Part shown: positions 2,529 through 14,944 of the stretch, piece after piece
Numbering within the stretch: position 1 is the stretch's first letter
How the letters are laid out: each line of letters begins with the position of its first letter
Assembly: GCF_003590775.1 (NCBI RefSeq)
Contig: NZ_QYUM01000002.1
Location: forward strand, 186,001-250,000
From: Sphingomonas cavernae
Lineage (GTDB): Bacteria > Pseudomonadota > Alphaproteobacteria > Sphingomonadales > Sphingomonadaceae
Direction: 5' to 3'
DNA: 64,000 nucleotides
Made by a program: the position numbers and the translations under genes
The notes under the pieces: model-generated
Told to the model about the DNA's origin: nothing
The model's database searches: none
What the model saw: the letters and a program-made list of their open reading frames with translations, nothing else

Positions 2529-3343
2529 ACGATCGTCTCGCCAACGCCTATGCCCGCGCCGCATCCGAAAACCGCGCCGCGCTCGTTACCTTCGTCACCG
2601 GCGGCGATCCGACGCCCGCGGACACCGCGGCGGTGCTCGACGCGCTCGTCGAAGGCGGCGCCGATGTGATCGAGCTCGGCATGCCCTTCACCGATCCGAT
2701 GGCTGACGGCCCGGCAATCCAGCGCGCCAATCTGCGCGCGCTTGGTGCGGGCACGACGACCGCGGACATTCTCGGCATCGCCAAGGGCTTTCGTGCACGG
2801 CACCCCGAAACCCCACTCGTGCTGATGGGCTATGCCAATCCGATGGTCCGCCGCGGCCCCGAATGGTTCGCCAATGCAGCCAAAGAGGCCGGCGTCGACG
2901 GCGTGATTTGCGTCGATATCCCCAGCGAGGAGGATGACGCGCTCGGCCCCGCGCTTCGCGAAGCAGGCATCCACCCCATCCGCCTCGCCACCCCCACCAC
3001 CGATGCCGCGCGGTTGCCCGCCGTGCTCGATGGCGCTGGCGGCTTCCTCTATTATGTCTCGGTCGCGGGCATCACCGGGCTTCAGCAGGCCGCGCAGGGC
3101 TCGATCGAGGCGGCAGTAGCAAAACTCAAGGCCGGCACTGATCTTCCCGTCGCGGTCGGTTTCGGCGTTCGCACGCCCGAACAGGCCGCTGCGATCGCAC
3201 GTGTCGCCGACGGCGTCGTCGTCGGCTCCGCAATCGTCGAGCTCGTCGCCGAGCATGGCGCCAACGCCGCCGGCTCCGTCAAAACCTATGTCGCATCGCT
3301 CAGCAGCGCGATCGCGGCCGCACGAAAGGAAATGGCCGCATGA
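2525..3343 (+). CDS. trpA: Tryptophan synthase alpha subunit
   Basis: TrpA cleaves indole-3-glycerol phosphate and passes indole through a tunnel to TrpB. The 272-residue protein has FVTGGDPTP near the N-terminus, then [14 protein letters not shown], which supplies the catalytic Glu and Asp, and later [10 protein letters not shown] and [10 protein letters not shown], the phosphate-binding elements. The start is a GTG overlapping the trpB stop, and the stop overlaps the accD ATG. There is no gap or internal promoter space on either side, so expression is tied to trpB and accD. Confidence 0.97.
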
Positions 3344-4194
3344 GCTGGCTCGACCGCGTTCGCAACTCGCTCCCTTTCATCGCCAAGCGCGAGACGCAGG
3401 ATACGCTCTGGCACAAATGCCCTGGTTGTTCGCAGATGATCTTCATCAAGGAATATGAGGAAAATCTCTCGGTCTGCCCCAAATGCGGCCATCACGGACG
3501 CATCGGCCCCAAGGCGCGTTTCGTACAGATCTTCGACGAGGCAAGCTGGACCACGCTGCCCACCCCCCAGGTCGCCGACGATCCGCTCAGGTTCCGCGAT
3601 TCCAAGAAATATACCGATCGCATCAAGGCTGCGCGCGCTTCGACGGGCGAGCAGGACGCCCTGATCAATGCCTCGGGCCGGATTCTCGGCCGCAAGGCGG
3701 TGGTCGGCGTTCAGGACTTCGCCTTCATGGGCGGTTCGATGGGCCTCGGCGTAGGCGCGGCCTTTGTCGAAGGAGCCCGCAAGGCGATTGCGGAGCGTGC
3801 GCCTTACGTCATCTTCACCGCGGCGGGCGGCGCACGCATGCAGGAGGGTATCCTCTCGCTGATGCAGATGCCCAAGACGACCGTCGCCATCGCGGAGCTC
3901 AAGGAAGCCGGACTCCCCTATATCGTCGTGCTCACCGACCCGACGACGGGCGGCGTCACCGCCTCCTATGCGATGCTCGGCGACGTCCAGATCTCCGAGC
4001 CCGGTGCGCTCATCGGCTTCGCCGGCCAGCGTGTGATCGAGAACACGATCCGCGAAAAGCTGCCCGAAGGCTTCCAGCGCGCCGAATATCTGCTCGATCA
4101 CGGCATGCTCGACATGGTCGTCGAGCGGAAGAACCTGCGCGAGACGCTCGGTCAGCTCATTGGCTATCTCTGCGAGGAAAAGGCGGCCGCCTGA
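3340..4194 (+). CDS. accD: Acetyl-CoA carboxylase carboxyltransferase beta subunit
   Basis: AccD pairs with AccA to move the carboxyl group from carboxybiotin to acetyl-CoA, giving malonyl-CoA for fatty acid synthesis. The N-terminal zinc ribbon is clear: CPGC at about residue 27 and CPKC at about 46. It is followed by the crotonase-type domain with GGARMQEG and [14 protein letters not shown]. The length of 284 is normal. It follows trpA with a 4-base overlap and is followed by folC after a repeat-bearing gap, the usual trpA-accD-folC order of this group of bacteria. Confidence 0.97.
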
Positions 4195-4215
4195 CGGCAT
4201 CGACAAACCCCCTCC

Positions 4216-4308
4216 GTCATGCTGAACTTGATTCAGCATCCATGAAAACAGGCGGGGCAGGTTCTTCGCTGTGTGTGTTCATGGACCCTGAAACAAGTTC
4301 AGGGTGAC
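4216..4308. repeat. Inverted pair of CTGAA/TTCAG palindromic repeats
   Basis: Between accD and folC two related palindromes face each other. The left one (4216-4246) contains GCTGAACTTGATTCAGC followed by ATCCATGAA. The right one (4278-4308) contains TTCATGGACCCTGAAACAAG and TTCAGGGTGAC on the opposite strand. Each makes a hairpin, and together they can make a longer stem. Extragenic elements of this GTCACCCTGAA type are familiar from sphingomonad genomes, from memory rather than from a search. It could terminate or stabilise the accD message. Confidence 0.75.
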
Positions 4309-4337
4309 GATCGCATCTGATCCTGAGGCTTGCCCGA

Positions 4338-5663
4338 ATGCCCGATTCCGCCCGTTCCAACGATCCCGCGGTCCAGCGCCAGCTCGACCGATTGACGATG
4401 CTCTCCCCCGGTCGCGACGTGCTCGGGCTGGAACGCATCTCGGAACTGCTCGCGCGTCTCGGCAATCCTCAGGACAAGCTACCGCCCGTCTTCCACGTCG
4501 CCGGCACCAACGGCAAGGGTTCGACCTGCGCTTTCCTGCGCGCTGCGATCGAGGCGGCGGGGATGCGCGCGCATGTCTATTCGTCGCCGCATCTCGTGCG
4601 CTTCAACGAGCGTATCCGCGTCGCGGGCAAGCTGATCGACGACGCCGAGCTCGCGCCGTTGCTCGCCGAAGTGCTCGATTGCTCGGAGGACATCCATCCC
4701 AGCTTCTTCGAGGCGACCACCGCCGCCGCGTTTTTGGCGTTCACGCGGCATGATGCGGAGGCGTGCATCATCGAGGTCGGTCTCGGCGGCCGGCTGGACG
4801 CCACCAACATCATCACCAATCCCGCGATCTGCGGCATCGCCCAGCTCGGCATCGACCATCAGGCATTTCTGGGCGAAACCGAGGTCGAGATTGCAGGAGA
4901 AAAAGCGGGTATTGCCAAGCGCTTCGTACCACTTGTTACGATGGTCTATGCGCCCGCGCTGAACCAACGAATCGCTGAAGTGGCCGCCGCCGCAGGAGCG
5001 CCCGTCCTTGCCAAGGGCACGACGTGGGAGGCGACCCTCTACAACGGCCGGCTCCATTACCGCGACGACAAGGGCAAGTTCGACGCCCCCCGCCCGAGAC
5101 TCGCGGGCGACCACCAGGTGATGAACGCCGCGCTCGCCTTCGCGATGCTGCGCCATCAGAACGCGGTGCATATTCCCGAAACCGCATTCAAGGCCGCAAC
5201 CGGCTGGGCGCAATGGCCCGCACGGCTCCAGCATCTGGAGGAAGGTCCGCTCACCGAATCGCTTCCCGGCAATGCCGAACTCTGGCTCGATGGCGGCCAC
5301 AACCCGGCTGCGGGCGAGATGATCGCGACCTATTTCCGCGATCGGCTAGCCGGCCGACCACTCCATCTCATCCTCGGCATGCTGGAAAACAAGGACCCGA
5401 TGGGCCTGTTGTCACATTTCAAGGGTCTCGCGGCGTCGCTTCACGCGGTGCCCGTGCCCGATCACGGCCATCACTCCACCGCTGATCTCGCCGCGATGGC
5501 GTCACAGATCGGTGCCGAAGGCCATGCAGCGCATGATGTCGAGGACGCTCTGGCAAAGCTTGGCGGCACGCTCGATCCCGCGCAGCCTTCGACCGTGCTG
5601 ATCCTGGGCTCGCTCTACCTCGCGGGCGAAGTGCTCCGCCTCAACAACCAGCCGCTAGAATAA
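4338..5663 (+). CDS. folC: Dihydrofolate/folylpolyglutamate synthase
   Basis: FolC adds glutamate to dihydropteroate and polyglutamylates folates, using ATP. It is a Mur-ligase-type protein: the P-loop VAGTNGKGST lies near residue 56, followed by SSPHLVRFNERIRV. EVGLGGRLDATN and the LDGGHNPA motif of the C-terminal domain are also present. The 441-residue length fits bifunctional FolC. It runs in the same direction as accD but is separated from it by a palindromic repeat, so it may have its own message end or start. Confidence 0.95.
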   Translation: MPDSARSNDPAVQRQLDRLTMLSPGRDVLGLERISELLARLGNPQDKLPPVFHVAGTNGKGSTCAFLRAAIEAAGMRAHVYSSPHLVRFNERIRVAGKLIDDAELAPLLAEVLDCSEDIHPSFFEATTAAAFLAFTRHDAEACIIEVGLGGRLDATNIITNPAICGIAQLGIDHQAFLGETEVEIAGEKAGIAKRFVPLVTMVYAPALNQRIAEVAAAAGAPVLAKGTTWEATLYNGRLHYRDDKGKFDAPRPRLAGDHQVMNAALAFAMLRHQNAVHIPETAFKAATGWAQWPARLQHLEEGPLTESLPGNAELWLDGGHNPAAGEMIATYFRDRLAGRPLHLILGMLENKDPMGLLSHFKGLAASLHAVPVPDHGHHSTADLAAMASQIGAEGHAAHDVEDALAKLGGTLDPAQPSTVLILGSLYLAGEVLRLNNQPLE

Positions 5664-9104: not shown

Positions 9105-10466
9105 TCAGCTTGGCGCTTTACGCATTTCGCCATCGGTGCGCGCGTCGCCCTCGCCGACTTTACCCGCGCTGCCGATCGAGGCATCGATCAGCCCGGCGCG
9201 CATCATCAGCCAGAACAGCACGATCCCGGGCACCGCCGCGAGCGTGGTCAGCAAGTAGAAGTTCACATAGCCCGTCGTCTCGATCAGCGCGCCCGCGGTG
9301 GTGCCCGTCAGGAAGCGCCCGACGATGCTCGCCGCCGCCGAGATCAGCGCATATTGCGACGCGGTGAAGCGCAGATCGGTGAGCGCCGAGAAATAGGCGA
9401 CCACCGTGACGCCGCCGATCCCGCTCGCGAAATTCTCGAACCCGATCGCCGCCGCCATGCCCTCATTGCTGTGCCCCGCCGCTGCAAGCAGCGCGAAGCT
9501 GAAATTGGAGACCGCCATCAGGATCAGGCTCAGCAGCACCGACCGCTTCATGCCAAGCTGGGCATAGAGGAAACCGCCGACGAAGATGCCGACGAGATAG
9601 GCGATGAATCCCAGACCCACATCGTAGAAAGCGATCTCGTCATTGGTGAAGCCAAGATCGTTGAACAACAGCCGGAAGGTCAGATTGGCGAGCGTATCGC
9701 CGATCTTGTGGAGCAGGATGAAGAGCAGGACGAGCAGCGCACCCTGTCGCTTGAAGAATTCCAGGAATGGCCCGGCGATCGTGTTCCCGAGTTCGGCAAT
9801 GCCCTTGCGCTGCGCCGCCTCTCGGTGGCGTTCGGGTTCGCCCATGATCAGGCCGGTGAGCATCGCGGGCAGCGCCAGCGAAGCGCACACCAGATAGGCG
9901 GCTTCCCAGCCCATGCGCGCCGCGATCACCAGCGCGACCGCGCCCGCGCCCGCCGATCCGATCCGCCAGCCATATTGCGACATGCCGGAACCCGCGCCGA
10001 GCTGGTTGGGCTTGAGCAGTTCGATGCGGTAGCCGTCGATCACGATGTCGAAGGTCGCGCCTGCCACACCGACGAGGATCGCGGCATAGGCGGTCTGGAG
10101 CAGGCTTGTCTGCGGATCGACCAGCGCCAGGTTGGCAACCGCTGCCATGACGAACAACCCGGCAAGGATCAGCCACGACACGCGCTGGCCGAGCCGGCCG
10201 AGCACTGGGATGCGAACGCCGTCGACGACCCAGGCCCAGAGCCACTTGAGGTTGTAGGCAAGGAAGGCGAGCGTGAAGGCCGTCACCGCCTTCTTGTCGA
10301 TCCCGTCCTGCGCGAGCCGAGTCGTCAGCGTCGCGCCGATCATTGCGAACGGGAAGCCCGAGGAAACGCCGAGGAAGAACGCCGCGATCGGCGCCGTTTC
10401 GGTATAGGGGCGCAAACCTTCGGGAAGGCTCGCCCGCCATCCCAAGCTTTCCGTAGCGTCCGCCAT
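9105..10466 (-). CDS. AmpG-family MFS permease
   Basis: A 453-residue integral membrane protein with 12-14 hydrophobic segments. The N-terminal part, with [41 protein letters not shown] followed by a [16 protein letters not shown] segment, matches the AmpG pattern: a start on 'GFSSGLPL' and then 'KFLWAPLVD'. AmpG imports GlcNAc-anhydroMurNAc peptides for cell wall recycling. The frame is open 75 bases further upstream, but [10 protein letters not shown] at 10466 looks like the true start. No amidase or beta-lactamase gene is next to it, so the muropeptide substrate is inferred from family only. Confidence 0.82.
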
Positions 10467-10550
10467 GCATACTCCCCAACCCGCGAAATTTGGGGAGAAA
10501 CTAGCGGATAATTGCGATATGCCTAGTGGCAGAACGAACAAGAAATCTCC

Positions 10551-10696
10551 GTTCGTCCTGAGTAGAGACCGAGCGAAGTCGAGGACTCGTATCGAAGGGC
10601 CCGTGCGCGATGCTTCGATACGCTGCTTCGACAGGCATGTCCTGAGCGCCTGCCTTGGCAGGCAGTCGAAGGGCTCAACAGCTACTCAGCATGAGC
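10551..10696. repeat. Palindromic intergenic repeat related to 5702-5865
   Basis: The left end GTTCGTCCTGAGTAG (10551-10565) is complementary, with three mismatches, to CTACTCAGCATGAGC (10682-10696). Inside are CGAAGTCGAGGACTCG and the pair TATCGAAGG / CTTCGATA, giving nested hairpins. It matches the plan of the element at 5702-5865: CCTGAG ends, an inner TCGAAGG stem and a GTCGAAGGGCTCAAC segment in both. It sits between the divergent AmpG-like and Rieske genes and reaches to within 20 bases of the Rieske start, so it probably overlaps that promoter or leader. Confidence 0.75.
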
Positions 10697-10713
10697 GGCC
10701 AGGGATGAGGAAT

Positions 10714-11850
10714 ATGAACGCCATCACGCCCACTCCGGGCCAGCTCGCGCTGGCAGATGCGATTGCGCATGGCTGCGCGCGCCAGAGCGACGCGATCACC
10801 TATGTCGAGGCCTCGGCCTATACCGACCCCGCGCGTTTCACTCTTGAGCATGAACGCATCTTTCGCCGCGCGCCGCAGGTGATCGCCCCCTCGGCGCTGC
10901 TGCCAGAACCCAATATGGCCGTGCCGCATGACGGCTTCGGTAAACCGCTGCTTATCGCGCGCGATTCAAAGGGCGTGGCGCATGTCTTTCTCAATGTCTG
11001 CCGCCATCGCGGCACGCGGCTTGTCGAAGGTGAAGAACCGGTTTGCGCCTCGCGCATAGTCTGCCCCTATCACGCCTGGACCTACAAGCTCGACGGCAGC
11101 CTTGTCGGCCTGCCCCGCCCGGACAGCTTTCCCGGCTTCGACAAAAGCGAATACGGCCTGAAACGCCTGCCGACTTTCGAGGCAGGCGGGCTTATCTGGT
11201 TCTCGTTCGACGAAGGCGCCAGCTTCACCGAGGCCGAGACGCTGACGCACGATTTCGACGCGTTTGCACTTGGGCAGCAGCACATGTTCGCGCGGCGGAC
11301 GCACGACGTCGCAGCCAACTGGAAGCTCGTCATGGACGCCTTTCTCGAAAGCTATCACGTCCTGCGGCTCCACGCCGACACGATCGGCCCCTTCTTCCAG
11401 GACGGCGTTACCAGCGGCGATACGATCGGCCCGCACCAGCGCTCCGCGGTAGGCCGCGAATCCGCGGTCGCGGCGCTAGACCTCAACGATTGGAAGGCGC
11501 TGCGCGCATCGATCACCTTCGCCTATCAGCTCTTCCCGGCGACGATCATGATCCTCAGCCCCGATTATGTGAACATCATGGTCCTGATGCCGCAAGCCGT
11601 CGACCGCGTGCTCGTCGAGGATTTCATGCTCATTCCCGAGCCGCCCAGGACCGAAAAAGCGCTCGACCACTGGCAGCGAAGCTGGAAGCTGCTCGACGAA
11701 GGCGTCTTCGCGGGCGAGGATTACCGCGCCGCCGCGCTCGGCCAGAACGGCCTTCAATCGGGCGCGATCGACCGGCTGACGCTTGGTACGCTCGAAACGG
11801 GCATCCGCCATTTCCATGACACGGTCGAGGCGCGGCTGGCGGCGAATTAG
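10714..11850 (+). CDS. Rieske 2Fe-2S aromatic ring-hydroxylating oxygenase, alpha-subunit type
   Basis: This 378-residue protein has an N-terminal Rieske domain with CRHRG and CPYHAWTY as cluster ligands (Cys-X-His and Cys-X2-His). A catalytic domain follows in which [11 protein letters not shown] supplies the two mononuclear-iron histidines. Such proteins insert oxygen using electrons from a separate ferredoxin and reductase. No beta subunit, ferredoxin or reductase gene is adjacent, so it may be a homomultimeric type. The ATG at 10714 follows a GATGAGG ribosome binding site; ATG 10705 is an alternative. The much longer open frame upstream runs through a repeat and is not credible. The substrate is unknown. 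Confidence 0.88.
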
Positions 11851-11905
11851 GCACTGACCGGTCGATAGCGGGCGACGTCCGTAATGGGGCTGTGCGGCCA
11901 TTGCC

Positions 11906-11953
11906 TTGAGCCCTCTCCCGCCTTCGCGGGAGAGGGTTGGGTGAGGGTCTTCT
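11906..11953 (+). repeat. Left copy of REP-like repeat flanking the DUF559 gene
   Basis: The 48-base unit starts TTGAGCCCTCTCCC, has the hairpin core CCCGCCTTCGCGGG and ends GGTTGGGTGAGGGTCTTCT. The copy at 12327-12374 is its reverse complement with two mismatches. The core is the same family as the pair at 539-659. Confidence 0.88.
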
Positions 11954-11972
11954 TTCTTCTACCTTGCGGTAC

Positions 11973-12316
11973 ATGCATCCGGTCCGACGCCAGATCAGTC
12001 CACACGCTGCACGCCTGAGGCGCGACATGACCGATGTCGAGCGCCGCGTGTGGCATGCGGTGCGCGATCGCCGGCTCGAGGGTTTCAAGTTTCGTCGCCA
12101 GGCCACCATTGGCCCGTTCGTCGTTGATTTCCTGTGCGTCGAGGCGGGATTGATCGTGGAACTCGATGGCGGACAGCGCAGCGTGGAGGCCGACGCCCCG
12201 CGTACAGCATATCTCGAAGAACAGGGTTATCGCTTGCTTCGATTCTGGAACAGCGAGGTATCGAAACTTTCGAAGGCGTTCTCGAAACTATCGCCCGCGC
12301 GCTCCACAACGCTTGA
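11973..12316 (+). pseudogene. DUF559 (endonuclease-like) protein, one-base frameshift
   Basis: The frame from ATG 11973 encodes a DUF559 protein: an N-terminal TDVERRVWHAVRDRRLEGFKFRRQ, then IGPFVVDFLCVEAGLIVELDGGQ with the acidic residues expected of a PD-(D/E)XK/Vsr-like nuclease fold, then LEEQGYRLLRFWNSEV. At about 12258 the frame breaks. The following codons in the neighbouring frame read IETFEGVLETIARALHNA and stop at 12316, exactly the usual C-terminus of this family. One missing base between GAGGT and ATCGAA would restore a protein of about 114 residues. Without it the frame runs on through the flanking repeat to 12452. Either the gene is decaying or the base is a sequence error. Confidence 0.85.
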
Positions 12317-12326
12317 GCAGGAAAGA

Positions 12327-12374
12327 AGAAGACCCTCACCCAACCCTCTCCCGCGAAAGCGAGAGAGGGCTCAA
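12327..12374 (-). repeat. Right copy of REP-like repeat flanking the DUF559 gene
   Basis: This is the reverse complement of the 11906-11953 unit, matching at 46 of 48 positions. It begins 10 bases after the restored DUF559 stop codon. The two copies and the gene together span about 470 bases. Confidence 0.88.
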
Positions 12375-12618
12375 GGCATGTCTGAAATTGGGTCGAAAGC
12401 CGCCAAAAACTGCTGTCCTACACATCGCCGATCTATCATGCAGGTCCACTGATAGGCTCTTTGACCAGGTGTAGACGCAAGCCAGGCATCGATCGAACGG
12501 GTCGATCAATGCCGCTGCACTGATCGAGGTGATTCTTCCTGCGGGCCTGACCTTACTGACCTTTGGCCAATCGGGACGCGGAACAGGGATTTCACGTGAT
12601 AGTCCCCGAACCTTCCGA
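12375..12618. other. Gene-free stretch with one strong hairpin
   Basis: I find no credible coding frame here. The one structure is GGCATCGATCGA (12485-12496) and TCGATCAATGCC (12502-12513), which pair at 11 of 12 positions around ACGGG. No run of T follows, so it is not a classic terminator. The stretch may be remnant sequence, or the 3' end of the cupin gene message on the minus strand. Confidence 0.5.
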
Positions 12619-13104
12619 TCAGCCCTCTTCGCGGTCGTAATAGTCAACGTCTGCCTCGGCGCGAAACATCTTGCGAAGTCCGCGATCGCCGCGCTTGCCC
12701 GCTACGACCGACACCTTCCCCGAATCCGGATATTCGCACGCCTCGACCTCGACGAGCGTCGAAATCGCCAGATAACGCATCGTGATCGTGCCCGTGTTGA
12801 TGATCTGGTGCGCCACCTCCGGCCCACCCGGCGGGCACGCGATCACGTCATGCTGGCGGATCGGGTAGTGCTGGTCGCCGAAGCGCAGTTCGCCTTCACC
12901 CTCGAGGATGAAGAACATCTCTTCCTCGCCATGATGCGAGTGGAAGGGGCATTGCACCTTGCCGGGGGGGAGCACGGTCAGGTTGTAGCCCAGGTCGCGT
13001 GCGCCGATTAGGTCGCTGATCGTGGCGCGGCTCGATGTGAAACGGCCATTCTCCTCCACATCGTCGAACGCCAATTCGTCGAGATTGATAATCGGTTTCA
13101 CCAT
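12619..13104 (-). CDS. Cupin domain protein
   Basis: A 161-residue single-domain cupin. The first cupin motif appears as PFHSHHGEEEMFFILEGEGEL, with the His-X-His, Glu and later His metal ligands; the second is near CPPGGPEVAHQIINTG. These folds bind Fe, Mn or Zn and serve as dioxygenases, isomerases or sensors. The C-terminal tail KMFRAEADVDYYDREEG is acidic. The start MVKPIINLDEL is chosen over an upstream ATG at 13140, because that would overlap the neighbouring receiver gene's end (13137). It lies 32 bases downstream of that gene, so they could share a message. The substrate is unknown. Confidence 0.85.
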   Translation of the reverse strand: MVKPIINLDELAFDDVEENGRFTSSRATISDLIGARDLGYNLTVLPPGKVQCPFHSHHGEEEMFFILEGEGELRFGDQHYPIRQHDVIACPPGGPEVAHQIINTGTITMRYLAISTLVEVEACEYPDSGKVSVVAGKRGDRGLRKMFRAEADVDYYDREEG

Positions 13105-13136
13105 TGGCCTGTCCTCCGAAATCAAATCGAGCCTGT

Positions 13137-13562
13137 TCAAACCGCGTACAGCGTCAGCCCCCGCGGCAGCTTCCTGGGCCGCTTGCCGCCAAGGCTCGCT
13201 TCAATCGCATCGATCGCCGCCAGCAGTTCCTTGTGCGCAAAGGGTTTGCCCAGGCACCCGATCGACATCAACGGCGCGTCGACGGGGCAGCTCGCGGTCA
13301 CGAACAGCAGCCGCACCTGGCGGCGCAGCGCCTCGCGCGCCAGATCGGCGCCGTCGCGCTCACCCGTCAACCGGACATCGCTAAGGATCAGGTCGACCTC
13401 TCCGGCATCGAGCACGGCCACGGCGTCGCGATAGCGATCGACCGTGCCGACGACATGATAACCAGCTTCGGTCAGCACATGCTCGGTGTCGAACGCCACC
13501 AGCGGCTCATCCTCGACGATGAGAAGCCGGTTGATCAGCCTTTGCTTCCTGCCAAACAGCAT
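13137..13562 (-). CDS. Single-domain response regulator
   Basis: A 141-residue CheY-like receiver with no output domain. The acidic pocket is LLIVEDEPLVAF near residue 13, the phospho-acceptor is Asp62 in LILSDVRL, the switch residue is the Thr in FVTAS (about 89), and Lys106 lies in GKPF. A short basic tail, GGKRPRKLPRGL, follows the fold. Lone receivers of this type in alphaproteobacteria often work with HWE or HisKA_2 kinases, but no kinase is adjacent; the nearest is at 45.9 kb. The gene precedes the cupin on the same strand and is divergent from rluB. Confidence 0.88.
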   Translation of the reverse strand: MLFGRKQRLINRLLIVEDEPLVAFDTEHVLTEAGYHVVGTVDRYRDAVAVLDAGEVDLILSDVRLTGERDGADLAREALRRQVRLLFVTASCPVDAPLMSIGCLGKPFAHKELLAAIDAIEASLGGKRPRKLPRGLTLYAV

Positions 13563-13655
13563 ATATTGCGCTTGTCCTCTCCCGCGCCCGGTGGGAGCGC
13601 ATAATGGCTCGCGATTGCGCGCGCACGAACTAATTTTCACGTCTGGAGACGAAAT

Positions 13656-14411
13656 TTGGCCCCGCCCCTGAAAAAGCGCAGCGAAGACCGGCCCGAGGGC
13701 CAGCGCATCGCGAAGCTGCTGGCGCGCGCGGGCATCGCCTCGCGCCGCGAGATCGAACGCATGATCGCCGAAGGGCGCATCGCGTTGAACGGAGAGGTGC
13801 TCAATACGCCCGCAACGATCCTGACCTCGCTCCACGGCATCACCGTTGACGGCAACCCCGTCAAGCAGGCGCCACCCGCCAAGCTCTTTCGCTTTCACAA
13901 GCCGTCGGGGGTGCTCACCACGGAGCGCGATCCCAAGGGCCGCCCCACGATCTACGACCGCCTGCCGCGGGACATGGCACGGGTCATGCCCGTCGGCCGG
14001 CTCGACCTCAACACAGAGGGCCTGCTGCTGCTCACCAATGACGGCGAGTTGAAGCGCCAGCTCGAACTGCCGAAGACGGGCGTGGTGCGTACCTACCGCG
14101 CGCGCGCCTATGGTGATGTGACGCAGGCACAGCTTGAGGACCTGATCGAAGGCATCGAGATCGACGGCATTCGCTATGGCTCGATCGACGCCAATCTGGA
14201 GCGCCGCACGGGCGCGAACACCTGGATCGAGATGAAGCTGACCGAAGGCAAGAACCGCGAGGTCCGCCGCGTGCTCGAATATCTGGGCCTCAAGGTCTCG
14301 CGCCTGATCCGGACGAGCTACGGCCCCTTCGAGCTCGGCGATCTGCCTACCGGTGCAGTCGATGAGATCCGGCGTCATGACGTCATCACCTTCCGGAACA
14401 CGCTGGGATGA
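13656..14411 (+). CDS. rluB: 23S rRNA pseudouridine synthase, RsuA/RluB family
   Basis: The enzyme isomerises a specific uridine in 23S rRNA (position 2605 for RluB). An N-terminal S4 domain (RIAKLLARAGIASRREIERMIAEGRIALNG) is followed by the catalytic domain, whose signature GRLDLNTEGLLLLTND holds the catalytic Asp. EGKNREVRRVLEYLGLKV is also typical. The start is a TTG preceded by TGGAG. The length of 251 is normal for the family. Choosing RluB rather than RsuA or RluE rests on general likeness. The stop overlaps the rsmD ATG, so two rRNA-modifying enzymes are coupled. Confidence 0.9.
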   Translation: MAPPLKKRSEDRPEGQRIAKLLARAGIASRREIERMIAEGRIALNGEVLNTPATILTSLHGITVDGNPVKQAPPAKLFRFHKPSGVLTTERDPKGRPTIYDRLPRDMARVMPVGRLDLNTEGLLLLTNDGELKRQLELPKTGVVRTYRARAYGDVTQAQLEDLIEGIEIDGIRYGSIDANLERRTGANTWIEMKLTEGKNREVRRVLEYLGLKVSRLIRTSYGPFELGDLPTGAVDEIRRHDVITFRNTLG

Positions 14412-14944
14412 GGATCATCGCGGGTGAATGGCGTGGGCGCGCTCTGAAAGCGCCCGCGGGCCAGGCAACGCGCCCGACCAGCGATCGCGCACGCGAAGCG
14501 CTCTTCTCGATGCTCACCAGCCGTCTGGGCAGCTTCGAGGGATTGCGCGTCGCCGATCTCTTCGCGGGCACGGGCGCGCTCGGGCTCGAAGCGCTGTCGC
14601 GCGGCGCCGCCCATTGCACCTTTTTCGAAAATGACCGCGCAGCGATCGCCGCGCTCAAGGCCAATGTGGATGGGCTGGGCGTTGCGGCGCGCGCCGAGAT
14701 CCGCGCGCAATCCGCGCTGTTCGCGGCGGGTGGCCCGTTCGATCTGATCCTGCTCGATCCGCCATATGGCACCGGGCTGGGCCAGCAGGCGCTTGCCTCG
14801 CTCTCCGAGCGCAAGGCCTTCAACCCCGGCTGCCTCGTCAGCATCGAAACCGCACGCGATGAGGCGGTCGACGTTCCCGGCCTCATACCCGAAACCGAGC
14901 GCACCTACGGCAAGGCGAAGCTCGTCCTCCTCCGCGCGCTTTGA
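14408..14944 (+). CDS. rsmD: 16S rRNA (guanine-966-N2)-methyltransferase
   Basis: RsmD methylates G966 of 16S rRNA on the 30S subunit using SAM. The 178-residue protein opens with MRIIAGEWRGR and TRPTSDRAREALFSML, both standard for the family. The SAM loop is DLFAGTGALGLEALSRGA, and the catalytic motif is LLDPPYGTG (the (D/N)PPY motif). It is translationally coupled to rluB through ATGA. A palindrome-free gap and a DMT transporter follow. Confidence 0.95.
   Translation: MRIIAGEWRGRALKAPAGQATRPTSDRAREALFSMLTSRLGSFEGLRVADLFAGTGALGLEALSRGAAHCTFFENDRAAIAALKANVDGLGVAARAEIRAQSALFAAGGPFDLILLDPPYGTGLGQQALASLSERKAFNPGCLVSIETARDEAVDVPGLIPETERTYGKAKLVLLRAL

Follow-up and report, generated by a model that had tools for sequence, protein, structure and literature searches.

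Among the palindromic repeats described from bacteria, the BoxC/PIT/TM elements come close to the arms reported here. They are intrastrand-triplex repeats, and E. coli copies have been reported to form the triplex in solution (Holder et al. 2015, PMC4666352). According to the accessible part of that paper, the surroundings of the E. coli sites are free of mobility-gene remnants, and earlier work cited in it found such repeats to be without promoter or terminator activity. A second point of reference is the RAYT transposase, which sits between inverted REP sequences; this layout was the basis of the original prediction for the present locus, that is, a DUF559 nuclease gene enclosed by inverted REP-like repeats.

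As to the protein, an earlier profile study that started from YcjD reached Vsr (PMC1189080), and the six recognized families of homing endonucleases include EDxHD, exemplified by I-Bth0305I (PMC3943268). Caulobacter VsrA, a DUF559 protein, has been tied to cytosine methylation and DNA damage (PMC12907096), and in E. coli ycjD occupies the place where other strains have the eef operon (PMC12817139), each as far as the accessible parts of these sources go. In the titles and abstract openings of the openly licensed literature nothing was found linking DUF559 to a repeat family; a report elsewhere is possible.

The decayed unit in the Sphingomonas cavernae window

The window, that is, the whole 64,000-nt stretch of S. 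cavernae DNA analysed here, carries between a Rieske and a cupin gene a unit in which DUF559 is the only recognized gene. Its parts, together with a related gene-less pair, are the following:

11887–12391, + strand: whole unit, bounded by the ends of similarity to the matching intergene of the congeneric genome G003
11902–11959, + strand: left arm, outer hairpin plus inner purine block (inverted repeat I1, 54/58 nt)
11911–11936, + strand: left outer hairpin, with pyrimidine strand, loop and purine strand (sequence, inverted repeat, DNA folding)
11939–11947, + strand: left third block, GGGTGAGGG, the purine stem strand mirrored with one A changed to T (read from sequence)
11973–12316, + strand: decayed gene of a DUF559 (YcjD-type) nuclease (PF04480, E = 9e-34; alignment with the intact copy L002; invariant columns)
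12321–12378, − strand: right arm (inverted repeat I1)
12333–12341, − strand: right third block (read from sequence)
12344–12369, − strand: right outer hairpin (inverted repeat, DNA folding)
539–659, no strand: gene-less inverted pair of the same class, with hairpins at 539–564 and 636–659 and third blocks at 567–575 and 624–633 (read from sequence)

The bounds of the unit follow from a search with window positions 9500–14500, of which query positions 1215–2387 and 2893–5001 match G003, that is, up to 11886 and again from 12392. The corresponding intergene of G003 measures 163 nt and holds a gene-less palindrome pair of a type unlike the window arms; since it has a palindrome pair of its own, it is not a bare empty site.

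Each arm is 58 nt long and the two, which lie 361 nt apart, match at 54 of 58 positions (93%); the 46 of 48 positions counted originally are exact for 11907–11954, the repeat being longer. From the outside inwards an arm consists of pyrimidine strand, loop, purine strand, TT and GGGTGAGGG. In single-strand DNA folding both arms give a hairpin of 12 bp (z = −4.0 and −2.6), perfect in the left arm and with one mismatch in the right, and the loops are 8 nt (first) and 2 nt (second). Neither of the words GTAG and CGTC is present in the window arms, and a known RNA element was set aside, as Rfam gave no match at 9500–14500. That the same repeat occurs without a gene at 539–659 holds in so far as an inverted pair of the same class is found there; it is of another subtype.

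The enclosed gene matches PF04480 with 116 bits (cut-off 20.6, E = 9e-34). The broken frame hinted at from the first reading is accounted for by a one-base deletion near the C-terminus, common to the copy L004, by which the final stretch of the gene comes to lie in another reading frame; the sister copy L002 has an intact frame of 126 aa. Further, the window copy has arginine in place of a histidine that is kept in L002 and does not vary in alignments of 21 and 62 relatives; we take this histidine to belong to the active site (EDxHD motif). Because the frame is broken near the C-terminus and the invariant histidine is replaced, the window copy is taken as dead.

Reading frames of the + strand at 11937–12452 enter the arms, and their translation ends in tails such as PSPNPLPRKRERAQG; parts of annotated proteins may thus be translated palindromes. 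Two further repeats lie nearby. At 10546–10690, where the long frame containing the Rieske oxygenase gene begins, there is another dispersed family, with copies of about 39 nt (97–100%) at several places in the S. cavernae genome and close copies in G001 and G002, as well as weaker copies of about 90 nt in the S. cavernae genome and G003; a 464-kb sample of the S. cavernae genome contained no second copy. Directly after the unit, 12392–12565 has copies of 72–74% identity at two other places in G003 and one of 68% elsewhere in the S. cavernae genome.

Inverted palindromes around DUF559 genes

One fixed test was used throughout: 250 nt upstream of a gene were aligned locally with the reverse complement of 250 nt downstream, a score of at least 40 was demanded, and both arms had to contain a hairpin of at least 7 pairs. 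In a census of 59 Sphingomonadaceae genomes plus the genus, 83 of 108 strong DUF559 genes (PF04480 score of at least 75 bits, a line drawn after seeing the listing) lie between inverted palindromes and 25 fail. The rate is 54/71 for scores of at least 100 bits, 29/37 for 75–100 and 3/24 below 75; the census omits 15 places with split or fragmentary matches or with domains in very long frames, and also the second piece of the broken gene L013. In S. cavernae itself 10 of 13 DUF559 genes pass, among its genus relatives 6 of 6, while L001, the top-scoring DUF559 gene of the S. cavernae genome, is among those that fail.

Control ORFs from twenty 20-kb stretches of the S. cavernae genome and fifteen of other genomes pass in 1 of 505 cases, in a pool that includes two ORFs overlapping the L003 place on the other strand, both of which fail. 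The count of DUF559 against other genes that the original prediction had called for (83/108 versus 1/505) is clearly in its favour. ORFs neighbouring DUF559 loci pass in 0 of 104 cases, and those next to the named loci (best 80 of 553 candidates) in 1 of 142; on these controls chance was set aside as the cause of the flanking. A general trait of small gene families was set aside likewise, as the genes of Phd/YefM antitoxins, another such family, pass in none of 30 cases.

The association extends beyond the family. In a sample of the phylum, 37 of 120 genomes have a DUF559 match; loci from 30 of these genomes were taken, and 13 of the 28 that were new and scored pass. The five weakest (L112–L116), three of them domains in frames of more than 1500 residues, all fail, and among the other 23 there are four more (L093, L096, L097 and L108) with the same motif below threshold; the top scorer of this sample, L089, fails. 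Of the best 80 of 553 named candidates, 51 pass and 29 do not, L264, too short to score, being counted as a miss. The passers among these 80 include Xanthomonas, Variovorax, Paraburkholderia, Methylococcus, Dyella and Halopseudomonas, as well as metagenome-assembled genomes (MAGs) labelled Nitrospira, Planctomycetota and Clostridia, labels that can err; the non-passers include both Legionella loci, Bosea and MAGs labelled Chloroflexi, Spirochaetes and Kapabacteria, in some of which one or both sides have hairpins of this kind that stay below threshold. Of 44 matching plasmid records 10 were examined, and 4 of these reach the score threshold; matching phage records number 2. The link between DUF559 and palindromes is no oddity of sphingomonads; it extends over several classes of Proteobacteria and to MAGs from other phyla.

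Some loci depart from this layout. In an E. coli record ycjD, the DUF559 gene of that species, has such repeats on its downstream side only, and copy 9 of the E. coli repeats (Table 1 of PMC4666352) is located 167 nt downstream of this gene. In Neisseria gonorrhoeae (L083) hairpin repeats of the same kind lie on both sides of the DUF559 gene, in direct and not inverted orientation. Around the Sinorhizobium meliloti locus L085 (CP090106.1), short arm-like pieces recur in other rhizobial records, several of them about 45 nt long at 97.8%, and some part of this query is matched by 151 plasmid records; from this recurrence, rhizobial intergenic palindromes may belong to a DUF559 system. Finally, there is a lower-scoring DUF559 group in the family genomes (L180, L182–L201) that almost never has palindromes (3/24 below 75 bits), and L183 and L185–L187 of this group show dS values of 0.5–0.9 between genera, below most flanked pairs; low dS and few palindromes suggest that it may be an inherited housekeeping gene.

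Gene and hairpins also occur together at the level of whole genomes. Among the 120 phylum genomes, 25 have a strong DUF559 match (here E below 1e-10, a cut of our own); at least two exact CCCTCTCCC-loop-GGGAGAGGG hairpins are present in 18 of these, as against 6 of the 95 others (Fisher 4e-11, uncorrected for phylogeny). The same contrast is seen within genera: G150 has 4 matches and 133 hairpins where G154 has none of either, and G104 has 2 matches and 15 hairpins where G167 again has neither. There are counterexamples; G115 has 57 hairpins without a strong DUF559, G079 has 12 with no DUF559 match at all, and 7 of the 25 genomes with a strong DUF559 have none of the exact hairpin.

Arms, protein and movement of the unit

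An antiparallel purine-motif triplex needs a mirror repeat; a direct copy is what a second pairing partner would require. In 169 arms the third block fits the purine stem strand as a mirror at 0.865, as a direct copy at 0.803 and with shuffled tails at 0.677, where in mirror scoring both A and T count as matching opposite A. Of the 159 asymmetric arms, 92 are fitted better by the mirror and 21 by the direct copy, and 46 tie, so the mirror rule is a tendency. Of 146 arms, 63 have a block matching at 0.9 or better on the gene side, and 8 have such a block on the outer side. The arms tend, then, to be a hairpin plus a purine block following the BoxC/PIT/TM rule, and are predicted to be of the triplex type.

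A second arm architecture (L012, L017, L149, L158–L164 and others) has, ahead of the third block, a second hairpin (ACC...GGT) where the short linker would otherwise be; of 28 elements so labelled, 23 score 75–100 bits with PF04480, the labels coming from regular expressions and some being wrong. Four architectures were labelled in this way, which left 22 of 98 elements unlabelled and some mislabelled.

Arms and proteins diverge together. Over the 4753 pairs formed by 98 flanked elements, protein identity and arm similarity correlate with a Spearman coefficient of 0.36, kinship being ignored; none of 500 permutations, which ignore kinship too, came out as high. For pairs from the same genome rho is 0.53 (n=110). 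Mean arm similarity rises from 0.24 at 30–40% protein identity to 0.88 above 70%. Such a correlation is the trace expected if a protein recognizes its own repeats, and common descent of the units would add to it. The greater likeness of the two arms of one element (0.68 versus 0.37) owes part of its size to the flank test itself and is given no weight here.

Four close stop-free pairs (L159/L160, L005/L008, L159/L167 and L160/L167) have dN/dS values of 0.16–0.26, from which the DUF559 protein is under purifying selection; L002 compared with the dead window copy gives 0.58. A structure model built from 62 sequences reached a mean pLDDT of 85.5, versus 43 for a single-sequence model, and with it Foldseek found the endonuclease-like protein 3hrl, I-Bth0305I (3r3p, E = 3.7e-4) and, more weakly, Vsr (E = 1e-2); a profile search likewise gave 3hrl and I-Bth0305I (3r3p, E = 3.4e-5). 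L002 scores 102 bits with PRK09767, under the equivalog cut-off of 218 bits. A defence-system gene was set aside, the PADLOC matches being confined to weak ones with DpdF, in two of three proteins. For an enzyme that would carry out transposition by itself, the protein is small.

The S. cavernae genome (4.24 Mb) contains, by profile search, 13 DUF559 genes in 14 matched pieces, and no match to PF01797, the profile of RAYT-type transposases. One unit of about 510–530 nt is present four times at unrelated sites, with the window gene, L002, L004 and L013; these copies align over 511–533 nt with 87–97% identity, and by BLAST the similarity stops 7–31 nt beyond the arms. Further units resemble one another: L005 and L008 at 92.5%, with similarity ending before the 3′ arm and L008 failing the flank test, L009 at 72–76% to both, and L010 and L011 at 77% to each other. 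In G048 there are three units with 95–103 of 105 residues identical. Gene-less pairs occur alongside. In 464 kb of the S. cavernae genome there are 13 perfect hairpins, 12 of which have a neighbour within 400 nt; these 12 comprise both arms of unit L003 and, with the remaining ten, five gene-less pairs. The thirteenth hairpin is the left arm of the window unit. At two different sites (L343 and L344), a near-identical gene-less pair of about 170 nt with arms of the window type is found in opposite orientation.

Comparison of filled with empty loci, as the original prediction proposed, turned up both kinds, gene and arms being absent together. At the L010 site the flanks are 21, 10 and 12 nt apart in G003, G002 and G001 and 67 nt in G004, versus about 450–470 nt in S. 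cavernae, where the right arm ends beside the start codon of the next gene; at the L011 site they are 13, 7 and 60 nt apart in G003, G002 and G004, versus 727 nt in G001. None of these short junctions contains a DUF559 gene or the palindromes of L010 or L011, respectively. A unit in G034 is missing in 5 of the 10 congeners read, with both flanks there 17–27 nt apart. No target-site duplication was recognized at the sites compared, the congeners being too diverged for base-exact junctions, and a search of Sinorhizobium and Azospirillum replicons for a strain-level empty site yielded none. It is near certain that DUF559 genes and triplex-type palindromes form one unit, and its mobility is strongly supported.

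Explanations of the unit and its relation to known systems

The data support the association of gene and palindromes and the mobility of the unit, by way of the unit itself, its copies, its presence and absence as a block, the matched divergence of arms and protein, the mirror rule, selection on the protein and the co-occurrence of gene and repeat; what we infer is that the folded arm is recognized, that DNA is cut and that a joining step follows. The window would hold a dead copy of a very small mobile element, made of one DUF559 (YcjD-type) endonuclease gene and two inverted arms, each arm with an outer hairpin followed by a gene-side purine block able to lie back on the hairpin as a third strand. 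The DUF559 nuclease is probably the mover, which spreads and maintains the palindromes: each protein would recognize arms of its own type and cut or nick the DNA at or near the folded ends, after which host repair or replication would copy the whole unit into short intergenic spaces, and gene-less pairs would be moved in trans. Because the only protein has the homing-endonuclease/Vsr fold, and because several copies persist in one genome, break-and-copy as in homing endonucleases is favoured over a strand-transfer transposase, the chances standing at about even.

An improbable alternative is that some other enzyme, or replication errors, move the palindrome pairs, the DUF559 gene being cargo caught between two of them. 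Gene-less pairs are indeed common, as ten of the 13 perfect hairpins in 464 kb belong to five such pairs, and some genomes have hairpins without a strong DUF559; against this, other genes in the control sets hardly ever lie between such arms (1/505, 1/142, 0/104 and 0/30), arm type and protein diverge together even within one genome, the protein is under purifying selection, and PF01797 finds nothing in the S. cavernae genome. It is quite unlikely that the nuclease homes into pre-existing palindrome pairs, the repeat being its target and not part of what moves. For it speak the homing-endonuclease-like fold and the G003 intergene, which has a palindrome pair without the gene; against it, the type of that pair differs from the window arms. 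This explanation is already weakened by the empty sites, as the L010 and L011 sites in the congeners read lack gene and palindromes alike, and in the four-copy family similarity extends past both arms (7 to 31 nt at the BLAST ends).

Very unlikely, too, is an explanation without mobility, in which DUF559 would be a mismatch-repair or defence nuclease, Vsr- or VsrA-like, and the palindromes terminators or control elements of its gene. While the ties of Caulobacter VsrA to cytosine methylation and DNA damage (PMC12907096, accessible part) speak for it, other places in the genome have gene-less pairs of the same type, units multiply as wholes and at a given site are either there or missing as a block, the palindrome-poor group (3/24) is the weaker-scoring and more housekeeping-like one, and the lack of promoter or terminator activity noted above from PMC4666352 argues against such a role. 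That an ordinary REP/RAYT system has lost its RAYT gene at the window place can be dismissed as extremely unlikely: for all that a gene between inverted hairpin repeats is the same layout, PF01797 has no match in the S. cavernae genome, which refutes a remnant there as far as this profile reaches, the window arms lack a GTAG or CGTC tag, arms tend to obey the mirror rule instead, and the enclosed place is taken by DUF559 in many lineages.

With the DUF559 nuclease as probable mover, the results suggest a tiny mobile element of a new kind and make DUF559 a candidate enzyme for a family of bacterial repeats that has long lacked an explanation. Mobile-element enzymes are listed as DDE, HUH, tyrosine and serine recombinase kinds. 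We lean, by a little, towards DUF559/YcjD representing a new class of autonomous elements, with triplex-forming palindromes as ends, a nuclease of Vsr/homing fold specific for its own type, and BoxC/PIT/TM repeats as non-autonomous offspring. If this is true, a widespread "protein of unknown function" would have a function, and a class of mobile element with an enzyme outside those kinds would be added; with DUF559 named as the matched gene, the origin of the BoxC/PIT/TM repeats becomes directly testable. The protein is also a candidate for a nuclease that recognizes folded or triplex DNA.

Compared with known systems, DUF559 shares a homologous nuclease fold with the EDxHD homing endonuclease I-Bth0305I and with Vsr, but unlike EDxHD homing endonucleases it lies here outside any intron or intein, is bounded by palindromes and, with 126 aa, is hardly more than the nuclease domain. 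DUF559/COG2852 with E. coli YcjD (PRK09767) is the same family, the E. coli gene having such repeats on one side only. The CGTC-tagged REPs (Di Nocera 2013, PMC3733652) are likewise palindromic repeats of Alphaproteobacteria, described in the accessible text as lacking a dedicated transposase; their sequence and tag differ from the window arms.

The REPtron, consisting of RAYT and REP/REPIN, is alike in its single gene between inverted hairpins of its own type, in gene-less pairs elsewhere and in type matching; RAYT is a Y1/HUH tyrosine enzyme with GTAG-tagged repeats (PMC3733652, as far as accessible), whereas here a PD-(D/E)XK/Vsr-like nuclease is combined with triplex-type repeats, and one genome can have several copies of the DUF559 gene. 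The original interpretation, a RAYT-like layout with another enzyme class, is partly supported, as layout and count hold; the window arms, however, lack GTAG and CGTC, and across elements the arms tend to follow the mirror rule of BoxC/PIT/TM. With these latter repeats the units share the order of pyrimidine strand, loop, purine strand, short linker and second purine strand, the intergenic location, some inverted pairs and the mirror rule, with one A to T in the window third block. The window arms, with loops of 8 nt and 2 nt, lie outside the published consensus of N3–6 for the first and N3 for the second loop (PMC4666352), and a number of DUF559 relatives have a second hairpin in the place of the linker. 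Above all, as far as the accessible part of PMC4666352 goes, BoxC/PIT/TM elements were published as orphan repeats, whereas here the arms enclose a nuclease gene.
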